Shown: piece after piece, positions 56 to 6,144 of the stretch
Layout of the letters: each line of letters starts with the position of its first letter
Numbering within the stretch: position 1 is the stretch's first letter
IMG/VR virus record: IMGVR_UViG_3300032245_000484
Span: 1-64,000 of that record
Source: a virus
Reading direction: 5' to 3' (one strand)
Length of the DNA stretch: 64,000 nt
Notes under the pieces: generated by a model
The model's input: only the letters and a program-made list of their open reading frames with translations
Told to the model about the DNA's origin: nothing
Databases searched by the model: none
Translations under genes and position numbers: made by a program

Positions 56-129
56 TGATCCTGCGGGGATTTGAACCCCGATTCTGAGAGTGAAAATCTC
101 ATGTCCTAACCGGGTTAGACGACAAGACC
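56..129 (-). tRNA. tRNA-Glu (UUC)
   Basis: Read on the minus strand this folds as a complete cloverleaf. The acceptor pairs GGTCTTG with CAGGATC. The anticodon stem TGAGA/TCTCA encloses loop TTTTCAC, giving anticodon UUC, and the T-arm is CGGGG-TTCAAAT-CCCCG. The discriminator base is A at 56. The 3' CCA is not encoded. It is the last gene seen of a minus-strand tRNA cluster. Confidence 0.95.
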
Positions 130-132
130 GAA

Positions 133-204
133 AGCCACTTGTGAGATTCGAACTCACGACATTCACATTACAAATATGACGCACTGCCTCTGTGCTAAAG
201 TGGC
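133..204 (-). tRNA. tRNA-Thr (UGU)
   Basis: A minus-strand cloverleaf: acceptor GCCACTT/AAGTGGC, D-stem GCAC/GTGC, anticodon stem TCATA/TGTGA with loop TTTGTAA (anticodon UGU), and T-arm GTGAG-TTCGAAT-CTCAC. It lies 3 bp from the tRNA-Glu gene, so the two are almost certainly processed from one transcript. Confidence 0.93.
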
Positions 205-209
205 TTGAA

Positions 210-290
210 TGGTTGCGGAGGGACTCGAACCCCCGAAGACTATGTCAGCAGATTTACAGTCTGCCCTCGTTGCCGCTTGAGTACACAACC
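210..290 (-). tRNA. tRNA-Tyr (GUA)
   Basis: A minus-strand class II tRNA with a long variable arm, as expected of bacterial-type tRNA-Tyr. The acceptor is GGTTGTG/CGCAACC. The anticodon stem GCAGA/TCTGC holds loop CTGTAAA (anticodon GUA). The T-loop is TTCGAGT. It is clustered with its neighbours at spacings of 2 to 5 bp. Confidence 0.94.
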
Positions 291-292
291 GA

Positions 293-364
293 CTGGTTCG
301 ACAGGATTCGAACCTGTAACCTATCCGTTAACAGCGGATTGCACTACCATTGTGCTACGAACCA
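293..364 (-). tRNA. tRNA-Asn (GUU)
   Basis: A minus-strand cloverleaf: acceptor TGGTTCG/CGAACCA, anticodon stem ATCCG/CGGAT with loop CTGTTAA (anticodon GUU), and a T-arm with loop TTCGAAT. It lies 5 bp downstream of the stop codon of the 65-aa membrane-protein gene on the same strand. Confidence 0.94.
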
Positions 365-369
365 AATGA

Positions 370-567
370 TCACGACTTGACTATCCGTGTAATCCCGAAG
401 AGATTCACCACACCAACTGCCGAAACCCACAATGCATCCCATTGGTCAAGCCACAAGGACAGAAGTCCGCTGTTGCACAGCCAAAGGGATATTCCCCATG
501 CCCACATCGGGATCTGTGCGGGTCGCTTCGGTGCATTGATGATCGCATCGAATGGATTCTTTGCCAT
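370..567 (-). CDS. Small hydrophobic membrane protein (65 aa)
   Basis: No family is recognised. The N-terminus (MAKNPFDAIINAPKRPAQ) is polar and basic. It is followed by a Trp-rich hydrophobic stretch and a second one (roughly residues 20-40 and 45-60), consistent with one or two membrane segments. The ATG overlaps the upstream stop codon as TGATG, indicating translational coupling with the 131-aa gene. It ends 5 bp before tRNA-Asn, so it probably shares the tRNA transcript. A small inner-membrane or holin-like role is possible, but nothing specific shows it. Confidence 0.65.
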   Translation of the reverse strand: MAKNPFDAIINAPKRPAQIPMWAWGISLWLCNSGLLSLWLDQWDALWVSAVGVVNLFGITRIVKS

Positions 568-962
568 CAGACATCCTTTCCACGATTGATCGTAGGAGTC
601 TTTGCCTTCTCCTTACTCTGAATCTCGTCACGAATGCGCTCAAGATCCTTCTCGCGGTCTGCCTCAAGCGAAGCGTCGATCTTGTCGAACATCTTGCCCA
701 AGTCCTTGCTGCTGACCACGCTGCCGTCTGCGGATTCCTGCGCTGCCTTGTAGAACACTTCACGCATTCGTGCGTACTTCCAATGAATGTGGTCGAGTTG
801 CATCAGGACATTCATGTCCTGTGGAGTGCATTGCGGTGCTTCGACCATGTGCTGAAGTGCGACTTCGATCTTCTTGTCGCTCAGTTCGGTGAACGGAAGC
901 ATCGGAGGAGCGGAAACAACGAATGCGGACGCGAGTACTGAGATTGCTGCTATCGTATTCAT
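567..962 (-). CDS. Putative secreted/periplasmic protein (131 aa), unknown function
   Basis: The first ~18 residues (MNTIAAISVLASAFVVSA) look like a signal peptide with a possible cleavage site after VSA, although the usual N-terminal positive charge is missing. The rest is charged and helical with a Lys/Glu-rich C-terminus (DREKDLERIRDEIQSKEK). An AGGAG ribosome site (968-972) sits 5 nt before the ATG, supporting this start. The gene is coupled to the following membrane-protein gene and flanked by tRNA-Gly. No known homologue is recognised. Confidence 0.75.
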   Translation of the reverse strand: MNTIAAISVLASAFVVSAPPMLPFTELSDKKIEVALQHMVEAPQCTPQDMNVLMQLDHIHWKYARMREVFYKAAQESADGSVVSSKDLGKMFDKIDASLEADREKDLERIRDEIQSKEKAKTPTINRGKDV

Positions 963-975
963 AATGATCTCCTAA

Positions 976-1047
976 AGCGAACGAAGGGATTCGAACCCTC
1001 GACCATCGGTTTGGAAAACCGAGACTCTACCGCTGAGTTACATTCGC
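976..1047 (-). tRNA. tRNA-Gly (UCC)
   Basis: A minus-strand cloverleaf: acceptor GCGAATG/CGTTCGC, anticodon stem TCGGT/ACCGA with loop TTTCCAA (anticodon UCC), and T-arm GAGGG-TTCGAAT-CCCTT. It is separated from the main tRNA group by two small protein genes of the same strand and begins just upstream of the ribosome site of the 131-aa gene. Confidence 0.94.
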
Positions 1048-1114
1048 GTCAACGAGCGTGATGTGCAGAATGCGCTCCCCTCTGCTGCCGTTAGGTGGGC
1101 AGACACCAAAGATG

Positions 1115-1459
1115 TCAGCGGCTCTTCTTCGCGCTGCAAGCATTGTCGTTGCAGCAATCCGTCACCTTGTCCTCAAGCGAGTGGATCGAACGCCAGACAT
1201 CCTCAAGGCGGTAGGAGAGGTCGCGCTCCTGCTCATCGAAACGCTTCCACACGCCATCCTGCTCCTGATACTCGCGCTCCTTGGAATACAGCGAGTAGTA
1301 GTACAGCGTGAGCGATGCGAAGAACGCGATCAGGCAGAAGTTGCTCTTGCCCGCCGCATTCGCCGCTTCAGGTGCGCCGAAGGTGAACCATGCGAAGCCG
1401 ATTGCGGAAACCCATGCTGCCGTCTTGAACACATTCCATCCGTTGATGTTGAAACTCAT
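1115..1459 (-). CDS. Membrane protein with C-terminal coiled coil (114 aa)
   Basis: The function is not recognised. Two hydrophobic segments (about residues 11-30 and 40-57) are followed by a charged helical region with a coiled-coil look and a short Cys-rich end (CCNDNAC). The start is placed at the ATG at 1459, not the GTG one codon upstream, because AGGAG at 1466-1470 lies 6 nt before the ATG and only 3 nt before the GTG. The hairpin-anchored, coiled-coil layout resembles small phage lysis-accessory proteins, but this is only a topology argument. Confidence 0.72.
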   Translation of the reverse strand: MSFNINGWNVFKTAAWVSAIGFAWFTFGAPEAANAAGKSNFCLIAFFASLTLYYYSLYSKEREYQEQDGVWKRFDEQERDLSYRLEDVWRSIHSLEDKVTDCCNDNACSAKKSR

Positions 1460-1531
1460 CACAAACTCCTGTTTCTTGGATCGGGTGTTGTTTCATGCCC
1501 ATGCGCCGATCCGTTGCACATGAACATCTAG

Positions 1532-1606
1532 TACGCCGTCTTGGATTCGAACCAAGTCTTACCTGTTTATAAATCAGGCTGAGGATGCCAAGACCTCCCA
1601 CGGCGC
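1532..1606 (-). tRNA. tRNA-Ile (UAU), slightly irregular
   Basis: A minus-strand cloverleaf with acceptor GCGCCGT/ACGGCGT (first pair G-U), D-stem GAGG/CCTC and T-arm CTTGG-TTCGAAT-CCAAG. The anticodon arm reads CCTGA-TTTATAA-ACAGG with an A-A mismatch closing the loop, or alternatively a 9-nt loop. Both readings place UAU at the anticodon. One extra base follows the D-stem. UAU for AUA codons is unusual in bacteria, which normally use a modified CAU, so the anticodon deserves checking. Confidence 0.75.
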
Positions 1607-1909: not shown

Positions 1910-2319
1910 CAGTCAGCCCCCGTAGCAGACCCCACTTCGCTGACCGCAGCATCTTCCTTGCTGCCGTTGATCTCCCATATGTACGCTGGACCCGTCCAAT
2001 GGGCATTCTTGAGACCATTGCTCTCATCGTAGAGATTGCCGCGGATGTGATTCAGCGAGGGAGCCTTCCAACTTGCCGCACGGAAGATGTCCGCGCTGCG
2101 CTTGTCGATGAATCCCCATGCGGTCTTCTGCTTGTTGCCGTTGATGTCGCTGACGATGACCACGCGGATGTACTTGTAGCCTTCCTCGTACTCAACCGTC
2201 CATGAGTATGGACCATGCGGAGACTGCTGACCCGCAGTTTCCTTTGCCACGATGCCCTTCAGCGAATCGATGAAGGTATTGAATGCCGCAACAAAACGAT
2301 GATCGAACTTCATTTTCAT
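1909..2319 (-). CDS. Hypothetical protein (136 aa)
   Basis: Not recognised. It is a soluble mixed alpha/beta-looking protein with a 'YKYIRVVIVSDINGNK' strand-rich centre and conserved-looking Trp/Gly residues towards the C-terminus. A purine-rich AAGGGG lies 7 nt before the ATG at 2319; a second ATG two codons later (MKMKF) is possible. It is coupled to the downstream 94-aa gene. Like the rest of the tRNA cluster it is probably transcribed from the promoter near 2725. Confidence 0.72.
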   Translation of the reverse strand: MKMKFDHRFVAAFNTFIDSLKGIVAKETAGQQSPHGPYSWTVEYEEGYKYIRVVIVSDINGNKQKTAWGFIDKRSADIFRAASWKAPSLNHIRGNLYDESNGLKNAHWTGPAYIWEINGSKEDAAVSEVGSATGAD

Positions 2320-2337
2320 GATGAAACCCCTTCTAGG

Positions 2338-2616
2338 TTACTTGATTGTCTCATCCACCACTCGGCGGATATCCTTCTCTGTCTTTGCAAGGATGTCGCA
2401 CCACATCTGATCCCTGCTATTGACCTTCGTCATAGCCGACTTCACGACTAGGATCAGGTCATGGATCATGGCATCCTTCCTTGCGTCTGAGATGCCCGTC
2501 GATCCTGCGATTGTCTGAAATGTGTCTTCCACGATAGACCTTTCCTTGCTTCGGACGATTGCTACCTCGTCGTCGGGGTTGGAGTCAGTATCTATCATGC
2601 TGCGAAAGAACTTCAC
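2338..2616 (-). CDS. Hypothetical protein (92 aa, GTG start or shorter from an internal ATG)
   Basis: First protein gene after the minus-strand promoter near 2725. The reading frame opens with GTG at 2616. An internal ATG (MIDTD, 2598) would give 86 aa, and neither start has a strong ribosome site. The protein is charged and mainly helical (RSKERSIVEDTFQTIAGS, then a long helix around DLILVVKSAMTKV). Function unknown; 18 bp separate it from the next gene on the strand. Confidence 0.65.
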   Translation of the reverse strand: MKFFRSMIDTDSNPDDEVAIVRSKERSIVEDTFQTIAGSTGISDARKDAMIHDLILVVKSAMTKVNSRDQMWCDILAKTEKDIRRVVDETIK

Positions 2617-2711
2617 AAAACCACCAATCTTCCTATTATCTATGCGTCGAGGACTCCTTCCTCAACCACTTGCTCGGACGGTGCGGGTCAACTCCGACTC
2701 GCAGACCATCA

Positions 2712-2739
2712 AATATAGAATGTCCCCAAACGAAGTCAA
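2712..2739 (-). promoter_or_regulatory. Sigma70-like promoter for the tRNA/small-gene cluster
   Basis: On the minus strand, TTGACT (2739-2734) and TATATT (2717-2712) are separated by exactly 16 bp. It lies about 95 bp upstream of the first minus-strand gene and is back to back with a + strand promoter at 2809. Host-type, so probably early. Confidence 0.6.
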
Positions 2740-2808
2740 GCGGTTCGATCAAGTGAATCTTACTTCGTTGTGAATGATTTGATCCAAAGGTTCTGAAGCA
2801 ATGGGTTC

Positions 2809-2836
2809 TTGACTCGTATACTATACGGAGTATGCT
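2809..2836 (+). promoter_or_regulatory. Sigma70-like promoter, divergent from the tRNA cluster promoter
   Basis: TTGACT (2809-2814), a 16-bp spacer and TATGCT (2831-2836). The spacer contains the palindrome GTATAC. The -10 ends only 6 bp before the ATG at 2843, so the transcript would have almost no leader. Confidence 0.5.
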
Positions 2837-2842
2837 TGAGGC

Positions 2843-3010
2843 ATGAACAGCGACTACGACGATTGGCTACACGACGAGACGCGCGATAGAACCAAGGAGC
2901 CGTGGCTTCCATTGGGATGCTGGAGCATCTTCGCTTGCCTCTGCATCTTCTACGGGTGCATCCTGCTCTTCTCCACCTTCGCAAAGATCCTAAACTCATG
3001 GCTTGGATAA
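2843..3010 (+). CDS. Single-span small membrane protein (55 aa)
   Basis: A 55-codon frame starting MNSDYDDWLHDETRDRTKE. It has a charged acidic/basic N-terminus of ~22 residues, then one strongly hydrophobic Cys/Phe-rich span (about 25-47), and ends NSWLG. It is the only gene between the divergent promoter and a 10-bp hairpin. A 4-codon micro-ORF (ATG at 2832, TGA at 2844) overlaps its start codon. Codon usage is like the neighbours. The function is unknown; an early membrane-acting peptide is an inference from position and topology. Confidence 0.6.
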   Translation: MNSDYDDWLHDETRDRTKEPWLPLGCWSIFACLCIFYGCILLFSTFAKILNSWLG

Positions 3011-3041
3011 ATGATTCTTTTTCATTCGAAGAGAATCATTT
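3009..3041. other. Inverted repeat, terminator-like hairpin without T-tract
   Basis: AAATGATTCT (3009-3018) pairs perfectly with AGAATCATTT (3032-3041) around a 13-nt loop and overlaps the stop codon of the 55-aa gene. No run of T follows on either strand. A 10-bp direct repeat (TTTCCGATGG/TTTCCGATGC, 3039-3058) sits immediately after it. Confidence 0.5.
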
Positions 3042-3102
3042 CCGATGGTTTCCGATGCACCCTCTAAATAGTGTGTCGGGTTTGATCAAGAAGTAATACT
3101 AG

Positions 3103-3492
3103 ATGATCCTGGACCCCGCCAAACACGCCAAGTTGATCGACTTCGCCCATGCGAAGTGCCTTGAGATCCCCCGCCGCAAGAAGCATTGCAGCGTGATCCT
3201 CTACAAGAACAAGATCGTCGCAGTCGGCATCAATAGATTCAAGACCCACCCGCTTGCAGTCAAGCACGGCTATCTCTTCGGTGAGGTGCATTCGGAACTT
3301 GATGCCTTCCTCAAGTGCGAGAGGAAGGAAGGTCTTGAACTCTGGAACTTCCGCTTCAATACATTCGGTCAGATGCGTATGTCGCGTCCCTGCCCCAAGT
3401 GCCTACCTTGGTGCGTGAAGGTCTTCGACCGAATCTGCTACACGATGGACGATGGCATCCATGAGTTCGACACAGTCATGATCAGCCATTGA
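3103..3492 (+). CDS. Cytidine/dCMP-deaminase-fold protein (129 aa)
   Basis: The layout matches the zinc deaminase superfamily. A conserved strand-helix N-terminus leads to H-S-E (in EVHSELDAF, about residues 62-70), which aligns with the catalytic H-A/C-E. A later CPKCLPWC (about 98-105) aligns with the PCxxC zinc ligands. The extra Cys and the Ser in the HxE motif are atypical. It could act on dCMP, free nucleosides or nucleic acid, and the substrate is not shown. A TCTAAATA sequence at 3063 may be a weak late promoter. It is convergent with, and overlaps by 11 bp, the tape-measure-like gene. Confidence 0.7.
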   Translation: MILDPAKHAKLIDFAHAKCLEIPRRKKHCSVILYKNKIVAVGINRFKTHPLAVKHGYLFGEVHSELDAFLKCERKEGLELWNFRFNTFGQMRMSRPCPKCLPWCVKVFDRICYTMDDGIHEFDTVMISH

Positions 3493-5254
3493 ACCTTGGT
3501 GGAGTATCCGCTCCCGTGCGGCTTGTCGTTGGTGCCGATGCAACCACGGTATTGTTGGTTTGCTGAACGGAGTTCGCAGTCGTATTCATGGTAGGAGCAG
3601 CCGCAGGTGCCGACTTCAATGCAGCATTAGTCGCTGCATTGGTTGAAATATCCGATCCTGTCGGAGTTGCCGGTAGGATGGGAGCAACCGTATCAACGCC
3701 TCCTCCCTGTTTCGACCAGCCTTCGGCAGTCGTTGATTTTGATCCGAAGGTGAATGATCCGACTCCAGGAATGACCAGATCGTCGGCATCAAGGGCATCC
3801 CAATCGCTACCAACCCTGCCGATGATGCCAGTATCCTTGTCAATGTAAGCATTCATTCCGTCTCTGACTTTTCCGTTGGCAATGGCATTGCCGAATATCC
3901 CATACTTCTTGACAAGGCTTCTCAGCCTATCGGCAGTGAACACCTCGGGATATTTGTTGATTCCCATCTTGGTGCTGCTGAGTATGGAGTTGAAGTCATT
4001 GACCAATCCAAGGGCTTTTGCGGAATCGTCGGTGGAGTTTGCAATGGCGTTGGAGAAATCCGCGCTGTACTCTGCCATCGACCTTTCGACTTCCATCATC
4101 TTCTTCTCACCGGCGGACTTGCCGCTTGCTTCGGCAGTGGACATCGTTCCTTTTGCCATTCCTGCCGCAACAATCTCATTTCCCGATAGCCCCTTTGCAA
4201 GTCTTCCGGTTTCCTTTCCTCCCTGAGTTTCGACGCGATATGTCGATTCGGAAATCCTGCCTCCGTTGCTTTCGGCAAATCCTTCCTTCGATATCCCCTC
4301 AAGTTGCTGCTTATTCAATCCAAGGTCTTTGGCTGTGCCGAACTTGGTATTTCCATCCTTATCCGTTATCTTGTAGATTTTCTCACCTTGCTCATTGGTG
4401 GCAGTTTTTGTGGCATAACCCTGTTCCATCACCTGTTTTGTTTCTGCATCCGCCTTCGCGCGATATTTGTCTGCCTCATTGCCGATCCATTTTGCGATTG
4501 CTAGTCCCACCGCTCCACCCAGTAGTATTGCGACTGCGGGGAGGGCGATTGCTCCAAGGATAGGAAGGATTGCTGCTGCCGCTGTTCCTATCGCACCCAA
4601 CACCAGATCGATGAGACCTGTCAGTCCTCCTGCCAGCCATCCCTTGACCGATCCAAGAAGATCCATCAGTCCACTGAACAACCCACCACCTTCTTTTTTC
4701 TCTCCTGGCTTCTTTCCAAACAACTTCGTGAAGAAGTTTTCCTGCTTCTTCTCCATGCGGTCGGCATCCGCATCGTCTTCCTTTTCCTTTTCCTTAGCCC
4801 TCTCCTCTTCCTCAAGGGCATATGCACCTTCCTCGGAGGGGGTGATGACCTTCTGCTTGCCCTGATCCATCCTCTTGTTGGGATTCTCGACTTCATAGGT
4901 GGGAACTCCATCGACTCCCCACTTGTCCACTATGAGGTCTTTTAGATCTCCAAGCGCACCTAGATCCCTGCGTTTCTTCTCGCGGTCTTCAAACTCCTGC
5001 TTGGTGAGTTTCCTTCCCGTCTCATCACGACCTGTTTGCTCGTAGCGTTGCCGCCTCTTGAACTCAGCCCTTTCCTGCAATATGCCAGCACCAGGAATGG
5101 CACGAAGAAGCGGCGACTTTGCCAGCAGATTGGCTTGCATCGTCAGGATGCTTGCGGATATTGCCGTACCTACCGCTTCCTTGCGGCTCCACGGCTGAAA
5201 CTCGCGCATCTGATACGATGAAGGTGCGTTTTGTCCTGGGTTGGGTAGTGCCAT
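3482..5254 (-). CDS. Tape-measure-like tail protein, gp29 position (590 aa)
   Basis: Probably the tail tape measure/hub protein that sets tube length. The reasons are its position directly after the gp26-like gene and small chaperone-like ORF, its composition, and its length, which equals T4 gp29 (590 aa). It has a charged coiled-coil-prone N-terminal third (EEEERAKEKEKEDD). A long Gly/Ala/Leu hydrophobic block follows (about residues 195-265) with transmembrane-like helices. A Ser/Thr/Ala/Pro-rich tail completes it. AGGA 9-10 nt upstream, inside the end of the preceding gene, serves the ATG. No lytic domain is visible. Direct sequence identity to gp29 is not evident to me, so the call rests on context. 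Confidence 0.6.
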   Translation of the reverse strand: MALPNPGQNAPSSYQMREFQPWSRKEAVGTAISASILTMQANLLAKSPLLRAIPGAGILQERAEFKRRQRYEQTGRDETGRKLTKQEFEDREKKRRDLGALGDLKDLIVDKWGVDGVPTYEVENPNKRMDQGKQKVITPSEEGAYALEEEERAKEKEKEDDADADRMEKKQENFFTKLFGKKPGEKKEGGGLFSGLMDLLGSVKGWLAGGLTGLIDLVLGAIGTAAAAILPILGAIALPAVAILLGGAVGLAIAKWIGNEADKYRAKADAETKQVMEQGYATKTATNEQGEKIYKITDKDGNTKFGTAKDLGLNKQQLEGISKEGFAESNGGRISESTYRVETQGGKETGRLAKGLSGNEIVAAGMAKGTMSTAEASGKSAGEKKMMEVERSMAEYSADFSNAIANSTDDSAKALGLVNDFNSILSSTKMGINKYPEVFTADRLRSLVKKYGIFGNAIANGKVRDGMNAYIDKDTGIIGRVGSDWDALDADDLVIPGVGSFTFGSKSTTAEGWSKQGGGVDTVAPILPATPTGSDISTNAATNAALKSAPAAAPTMNTTANSVQQTNNTVVASAPTTSRTGADTPPRFNG

Positions 5255-5257
5255 CTT

Positions 5258-5443
5258 TTATTTTCCTAGTTTCTGCTGCCTTAGCCGTTCATTCTCTTCC
5301 TTGATGTACTGCGAGAGGAGAGACAGATATATCTCTCTTTCCCAAGGTATCATGTTCTCCAACTCTGTCAGCGAATAATGGTAATGGTGCATCAGGGCAA
5401 AGTTCGTCCTGTAGTAGTTACCAAGATTGTCGTGACAGAGCAT
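5258..5443 (-). CDS. Small tail-assembly chaperone-like ORF (61 aa; gp51 position, possible frameshift product of the gp26-like gene)
   Basis: It contains 'HYSLTELENMIPWEREIYL' followed by a Lys/Glu-rich helix. This pattern (short helix, PWERE-I-Y, charged tail) is the type seen in the C-terminal extension of phage tail chaperones. Its ATG overlaps the stop of the gp26-like gene as TGATG, so re-initiation is possible. It also lies in the -1 frame of that gene, directly downstream of a seven-T run, so it may be made as a fusion. It sits between the gp26-like and tape-measure-like genes, where T4 has gene 51. Confidence 0.6.
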   Translation of the reverse strand: MLCHDNLGNYYRTNFALMHHYHYSLTELENMIPWEREIYLSLLSQYIKEENERLRQQKLGK

Positions 5444-6144
5444 CAGGTAAAAAAATCATTCATACCTCGGAAGTCCAGATTGTAGTCTTGCTTGCAACTT
5501 GAGCAGTTGCATACCATGTGCTTGGTCAACTGAGGTCTCTTTCGATAGAACTCCGCGATCTGCTCAAACTGAGTCGTGTTGAGAGATTCCACGAAATCCT
5601 TCAGTTCCTGTGTGGTGAAGTCCTTCCGCGTGTATGTCATGCTGTCATCGAAGACCACTTCAATAGCCCCGCAGATGTATTCCAACATTCCATCCCCATT
5701 CAAGTCGGCTATGTTCTTCAGTGAATCATCGAACTGCGGATACTTCATGATCACTCCGATCTTATCGGTGAACATGATCTTGTTGGAGTGGTTTTCGGGA
5801 AACTCGACTTCGATGGTCTCAAGGTTCACCGGAACCTTGTTCTTTGCATCGCACTTCGGGCATATCGTGTTGACTTCGATGATCTCACCCACGGACTTGG
5901 CTCGTATCCGCAGGAAGATGTACTCAAGATCGAACACGGGCAGCGTCTCTGGATTTTGGATTCCCTCGACACATTCGCGAATGATGGTACACATCGCATT
6001 GAATATCTGCTTTTGGTCGTTGCTTTCCATCGCGCTGTACAGAACCTTCTGCTCCTTCATCAGGAACGGTCTGTATATGGTCTTCTTCTTGGAAGACGGG
6101 ATGGTAAGGGGATACTTGGGGGTTACTATCGTCGGTAGTGGCAT
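5443..6144 (-). CDS. 26: Baseplate hub/tail-assembly protein gp26-like (233 aa)
   Basis: Resembles the T4 gp26 family (T4 baseplate protein, PF12322), needed for hub assembly. The start MPLPTIVTPKYPLTIPSSKK is typical. It carries two Cys pairs, CPKC (near residue 99) and CNCSSC (near 218), which could form a zinc ribbon. GGAG 5 nt before the ATG supports the start. The stop is three codons after a T-TTT-TTT run suited to -1 slippage into the 61-aa ORF. Length is close to T4 gp26 (208 aa). The upstream neighbour is gp54-like and downstream is the tape-measure-like gene, matching a tail chaperone role. Confidence 0.78.
   Translation of the reverse strand: MPLPTIVTPKYPLTIPSSKKKTIYRPFLMKEQKVLYSAMESNDQKQIFNAMCTIIRECVEGIQNPETLPVFDLEYIFLRIRAKSVGEIIEVNTICPKCDAKNKVPVNLETIEVEFPENHSNKIMFTDKIGVIMKYPQFDDSLKNIADLNGDGMLEYICGAIEVVFDDSMTYTRKDFTTQELKDFVESLNTTQFEQIAEFYRKRPQLTKHMVCNCSSCKQDYNLDFRGMNDFFT
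5449..5455 (-). promoter_or_regulatory. Candidate -1 ribosomal frameshift site (T TTT TTT)
   Basis: On the minus strand the gp26-like frame reads GAT TTT TTT ACC TGA. The run gives a perfect X-XXY-YYZ heptamer (T-TTT-TTT) in zero frame. Slipping one base back continues TAC CTG ATG CTC, straight into the 61-aa ORF, giving a predicted product of about 295 aa. No pseudoknot was assessed. Confidence 0.5.

Follow-up and report, generated by a model that had tools for sequence, protein, structure and literature searches.

Does the minus strand of an uncultured T4-like phage encode two separate tail proteins where a gp26-like gene meets a short downstream ORF, or does it carry one gene with two products? 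In the 64,000-nucleotide stretch analysed here (the window), the short ORF overlaps the end of the gp26-like gene in the -1 frame, and the two frames meet at a run of seven T's. The locus is very probably a G/GT-type tail-assembly-chaperone gene of a T4-like myophage, in which a short and a long product arise via -1 frameshifting. The slippage itself, its rate, its stimulators and the chaperone roles of the products are the parts of this reading that we infer.

Genes and products at the locus

The gp26-like gene (5443..6144, minus strand) is an ORF for a 233-aa protein, the putative short product (G, or TAC-N). This protein matches Pfam PF12322 (T4_baseplate; 6e-57, residues 9-232) and PHROG 150 (baseplate hub; 1.3e-60). 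The downstream 61-aa ORF (5258-5443, minus strand) has its own ATG, which overlaps the gp26-like stop codon as TGATG, and matches PHROG 634 (baseplate hub assembly catalyst; 2.4e-27). A further match (3e-7) covers 50 positions at the C-terminal end of PHROG 150, which implies that this profile contains fused members. The flanking genes are gp54-, gp2-, gp4- and gp48-like.

A 590-aa ORF (3482..5254, minus strand) begins 3 nt past the stop codon of the short ORF and is, by position only, a candidate tape-measure gene; searches of PHROGs and of the phage collection gave no match for it, including none to a known tape-measure family. Its homologues are confined to close IMG/VR relatives and occupy the same place in five loci (L001-L005). 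The gp26-like gene has a single match in the 66,688-base virus record; no second, in-frame fused copy of the T4 type was found in this record, which may be a fragment. Six tRNA genes (Glu, Thr, Tyr, Asn, Gly, and Ile; window 56-1606, minus strand) lie beside the tail genes.

An AlphaFold2 model of the 233-aa protein, built from a 23-sequence alignment, has a pLDDT of 87, and a structure search with it matches many viral gp26-like models. Foldseek gives no significant match for the model in the PDB; among the matches listed, the one ranked first by probability (0.51) is 2ob9, the HK97 tail assembly chaperone, a weak resemblance with an E-value of 1.2 and a target TM of 0.43. A sequence search of the PDB returned no match.

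The slippery site

Read 5' to 3' on the minus strand, the gp26-like gene ends AAT GAT TTT TTT ACC TGA TGC. The preliminary description had read this end as GAT TTT TTT ACC TGA with a T-TTT-TTT heptamer in the zero frame, and the sequence bears this out: the heptamer occupies 5449..5455 (minus strand), with 6 nt between its last T and the point where the stop codon ends. A slip of one base back causes the last T to be re-read as part of TAC and yields D-F-F-Y-L-M-L-C-H..., which continues into the 61-aa ORF. The -1-frame extension (5258..5449, minus strand; the gp51-like or T domain) comprises 63 codons after the two shared Phe residues, adds a 62-residue tail, and starts TAC CTG ATG, as had been proposed; the long product read from the sequence (5449-6144 joined to 5258..5449, minus strand) is 295 aa, the length predicted for it beforehand.

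The -1 frame is closed by a TGA (5456..5458, minus strand) that abuts the 5' side of the heptamer and leaves zero open -1 codons upstream. The -1 frame can therefore be entered only within the run or via a later start codon, and any shift must occur within the T run. This TGA is not general, since a -1 stop immediately 5' of the heptamer is found in five of the 35 representative loci described below, the window among them.

The run is exceptional in its surroundings. Position 5449-5455 holds the single T7/A7 run of the 64-kb window, where dinucleotide shuffling gives an expectation of 7.1; no other A/T run there reaches 7. Mechanically called ORFs with a length of 150 aa or more contain 117 Phe-Phe and Phe-Leu pairs in the window, of which only the one at the gp26-like 3' end is slippery. 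Phe codons in the counted tail genes of the window are TTC 121 times vs TTT 44 times. In E. coli, U-UUU-UUU does not rank with the heptamers most prone to shifting (Atkins et al., 2016; PMC5009743).

Conservation among relatives

An IMG/VR search returned 70 relatives, 65 of them with both ends present; T-TTT-TTN lies near the stop codon in 65/65, and every member of this set whose sequence continues has the gp51-like domain next, in the -1 frame. Two further queries, a very diverse alignment and the Xanthomonas X1 protein, returned no loci. With the window included, the final collection comprises 79 loci, from which 35 representatives with mutual protein identity below 80% were drawn. An in-frame T-TTT-TTN stands at the gene end in 79/79 loci, and the gp51-like domain always comes next in the -1 frame as an extension of 57-72 codons. 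The T run singled out in the preliminary description is thus conserved, as T-TTT-TTN, among related gp26 loci, and no locus of the 79 lacks a slippery run or carries the ORF in another frame.

The collection spans cyanophages, pelagiphages, KVP40-like phages, and Rhizobium phages. Heptamer and -1 extension occur together in the cyanophages S-PM2, ACG-2014d, S-BM3, P-HM1, and MA01, in pelagiphage Mosig, in the Straboviridae PX29 and nt-1, and in RHph_I46, X1, OLIVR6, and KVP40-like contigs. This distribution bears on the suggestion that the interrupted frame reflects gene decay, or a mistake made in sequencing or assembling a homopolymer. Such runs are prone to errors, and the record comes from an assembled metagenome, but the break falls in the identical phase in independent assemblies and in the finished genomes of cultured S-PM2, P-HM1, PX29, nt-1, and OLIVR6, and T6, not T7, is found at many of these sites; an artefact or decay is hardly credible.

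It is the nucleotide pattern that is held constant at the site. The first Phe is TTT and the codon before it ends in T in 35/35 representatives, whereas the zero-frame residues vary (D, S, N or A before; F or L as the second residue) around the invariant T-TTT-TTN. The naive joint probability of the conserved TTT and preceding T is about 2e-16; it uses same-gene codon usage, ignores relatedness, and is indicative only. Elsewhere in the same genes, only 4/79 Phe-Phe/Phe-Leu pairs are slippery. Dual coding is not the cause of the conservation, since there is no -1-frame translation 5' of the shift.

The main alternative for the 61-aa ORF is termination at the TGA followed by re-initiation at the overlapping ATG, giving a separate 61-aa protein. 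The TGATG exists in the window, and some relatives have an ATG or GTG soon after the stop codon. Yet 20/35 representatives lack ATG, GTG, and TTG through codon 10 of the extension (23/35 lack ATG over the same stretch), and the domain is conserved in them nonetheless; what has been conserved is therefore not a gp51 with a start of its own. Re-initiation also leaves the invariance of T-TTT-TTN unexplained, and the nearest candidate for a ribosome-binding site, a GAGG at 5465-5468, is too distant from the ATG (~21 nt). Given further that T4 has the C-terminal domain only fused to a full gp26-like domain (see below), re-initiation is very unlikely to account for the locus, although TGATG may provide a minor extra route in the phage of the window that is not a conserved feature.

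Another alternative is slippage at the level of transcription: a single U inserted by RNA polymerase within the T run would give the same fusion protein. T runs can promote such slippage, and an extra U in the window would, as read from the sequence, yield a protein identical to that of a ribosomal -1 shift. Many relatives, however, carry just six T's, the next base being A, C or G, and conservation falls on a pattern X-XXY-YYZ that is in phase with the codons and leaves the last base free, which fits tandem tRNA slippage. The increase in RNA folding just 3' of the heptamer (next section) likewise speaks for the ribosome, and transcriptional slippage is very unlikely.

RNA structure and candidate stimulators

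Across the 35 representatives, predicted folding peaks just 3' of the heptamer: the mean z is -1.8 at +4 vs -0.5 in the gene body (P 1.3e-6), reaches -1.9 at +10, and is about -0.5 from +40 onward. The window itself has a predicted stem-loop (5362..5441, minus strand) that starts 7 nt after the heptamer, with outer arms at approximately 5441-5430 and 5374-5362. In a 136-nt fold it has z = -5.1, and 0/200 shuffles are equally stable; a 75-nt fold window misses it (z -0.44), and it is found with longer windows. The outer stem is largely retained in 6/7 close relatives and includes one strongly covarying pair, seen as C-G, U-A, G-C, and U-G. Predicted downstream structures differ between relatives. 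These data provide modest evidence for the stem-loop as a candidate frameshift stimulator.

A second candidate, the Shine-Dalgarno-like tetramer GAGG (5465..5468, minus strand), lies 9 nt 5' of the heptamer, and GAGG or AAGG is common 5' of the heptamer in relatives. As a stimulator it is unproven: its predicted pairing is not consistently better than that of shuffles, and its conservation may merely reflect conserved [R/K/E]-Gly codons.

Proposed mechanism and related systems

In the mechanism that we propose, most ribosomes would stay in the gp26-like frame and stop at the TGA, releasing the 233-aa short chaperone. A minority would move one base back on U-UUU-UUU, probably aided by the downstream stem-loop, and read on through the gp51-like domain to give the 295-aa long chaperone. 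If the analogy to lambda gpG/gpGT holds, the short form would serve as a coat on the tape-measure protein, while tail-tube subunits would be recruited through the C-terminal domain of the long form. The fusion of gp26 to a gp51-like ORF by a -1 frameshift in the G/GT position, put forward in the preliminary description, agrees with every comparative test run on these sequences.

The lambda system and other G/GT frameshifts (Xu, Hendrix and Duda 2004, as cited) share with the reading proposed for the window a short chaperone, a minority -1 fusion, and a gene placed before the (here presumed) tape-measure gene. They differ in the slippery heptamer, and sequence similarity is not expected; the window phage is a T4-like myophage. 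G-T frameshifting is described as widespread in long-tailed phages except T4 (Atkins et al., 2016; PMC5009743). A further parallel is the TAC gene of Vandenendeviridae and Andersonviridae (PMC12846349), in which a conserved T-run close to where TAC-N ends is likewise the site of a -1 shift and the C-terminal domain is misannotated as a separate gene; its motif is GTTTTT and the phage families are other ones.

The preliminary description held that no frameshift had been described for the T4 gp26/gp51 pair. This does not stand, to judge from two papers that credit Vladimirov, Gautam and Davidson (Virology 2022;566:9-15): one, on Adele (PMC12846349), cites that work for T4-like phages with poly-T -1 signals in their TAC-N genes, and the other, on PRFect (PMC10885494), for T4-like phages that have one short and one long fused gene and no frameshifting. 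From these citations, the chaperones of Vladimirov et al. share with the window the gp26/gp51 family and a poly-T -1 signal within the gene for the short form, and they include the two-gene layout as an alternative. The main idea is, as the citing papers present it, already published, and the locus in the window is a further instance; this uncultured phage as a member and its predicted downstream stem-loop come from the present analysis.

Evolution of the one-gene and two-gene layouts

In T4, genes 26 and 51 lie on opposite strands. Both products match PF12322 along its length (8.8e-64 for gp26 and 4.8e-54 for gp51) and each other weakly (1e-5); judged by these matches, gp26 and gp51 are paralogues. 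The extra C-terminal domain is present in gp51 only, where it is fused in frame to a gp26-like domain. T4 gp26 thus corresponds to the short form described here, and T4 gp51 to a gp26-like domain with the same C-terminal domain. The T4 arrangement of two genes on opposite strands, an in-frame fusion, and no heptamer (gp26 ends ... GAG TTC TTT GAG TTA CTA TAA) contrasts with the one gene and -1 frame of the window. RB49-like Phi1 likewise has a fused gp51 and no heptamer at the end of gp26, and the two-gene layout of T4 is found in Phi1, Aeromonas 44RR2.8t, and Erwinia FBB1.

T4 appears to use separate genes for products that other lineages derive from one frameshifted gene. Because the frameshift form is widely spread, we take it to be the likelier ancestral state. 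The evolutionary contrast is a clear one: most T4-like lineages would have one frameshifting gene, T4 and the phages close to it a pair of dedicated paralogues.

Variant sites

The gp26-like 3' ends of Ackermannviridae (SE14, phi1_175010, phiEa2809, and IMG/VR contigs; loci L082, L086-L100, L107, and L108) are also followed by a -1-frame gp51-like domain, with no start codon near its beginning. Here a strongly conserved ATT-TTC-ATT-TAA replaces T-TTT-TTN, and tandem tRNA re-pairing is impossible on it. The Ackermannviridae would then use a different recoding signal for the same chaperone, a tentative suggestion that we regard as somewhat less probable than its opposite. Vibrio D504 has a similar end, CTT TTC AAG TAA, but an ATG overlaps its stop codon.

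The distant gp26-like gene of Pseudomonas phage Deifobo (Arenbergviridae; CDS 2306-3160; locus L110) ends AGT TTT TTC AGA GAA TCC TAG. Its -1 frame is open over a long stretch, yet the extension looks unlike the gp51 domain.

Consequences for annotation

Sullivan et al. (2010; PMC3037559) described cyanophage and marine vibriophage gp51 as lacking the first ~200 residues, with cyanophage gp51 at ~20% of the usual length; frameshifting is not mentioned. Where a small gp51 gene is annotated, as in many cyanophages and vibriophages, it is most likely the -1-frame end of gp26 and no gene in itself, which explains these short gp51 proteins. A gp26 plus gp51-like fusion appears in none of the annotated public records inspected. 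The gp51-like domain is unannotated in KJ019121, OQ319121, and NC_049512, and is given an arbitrary late start in other records.
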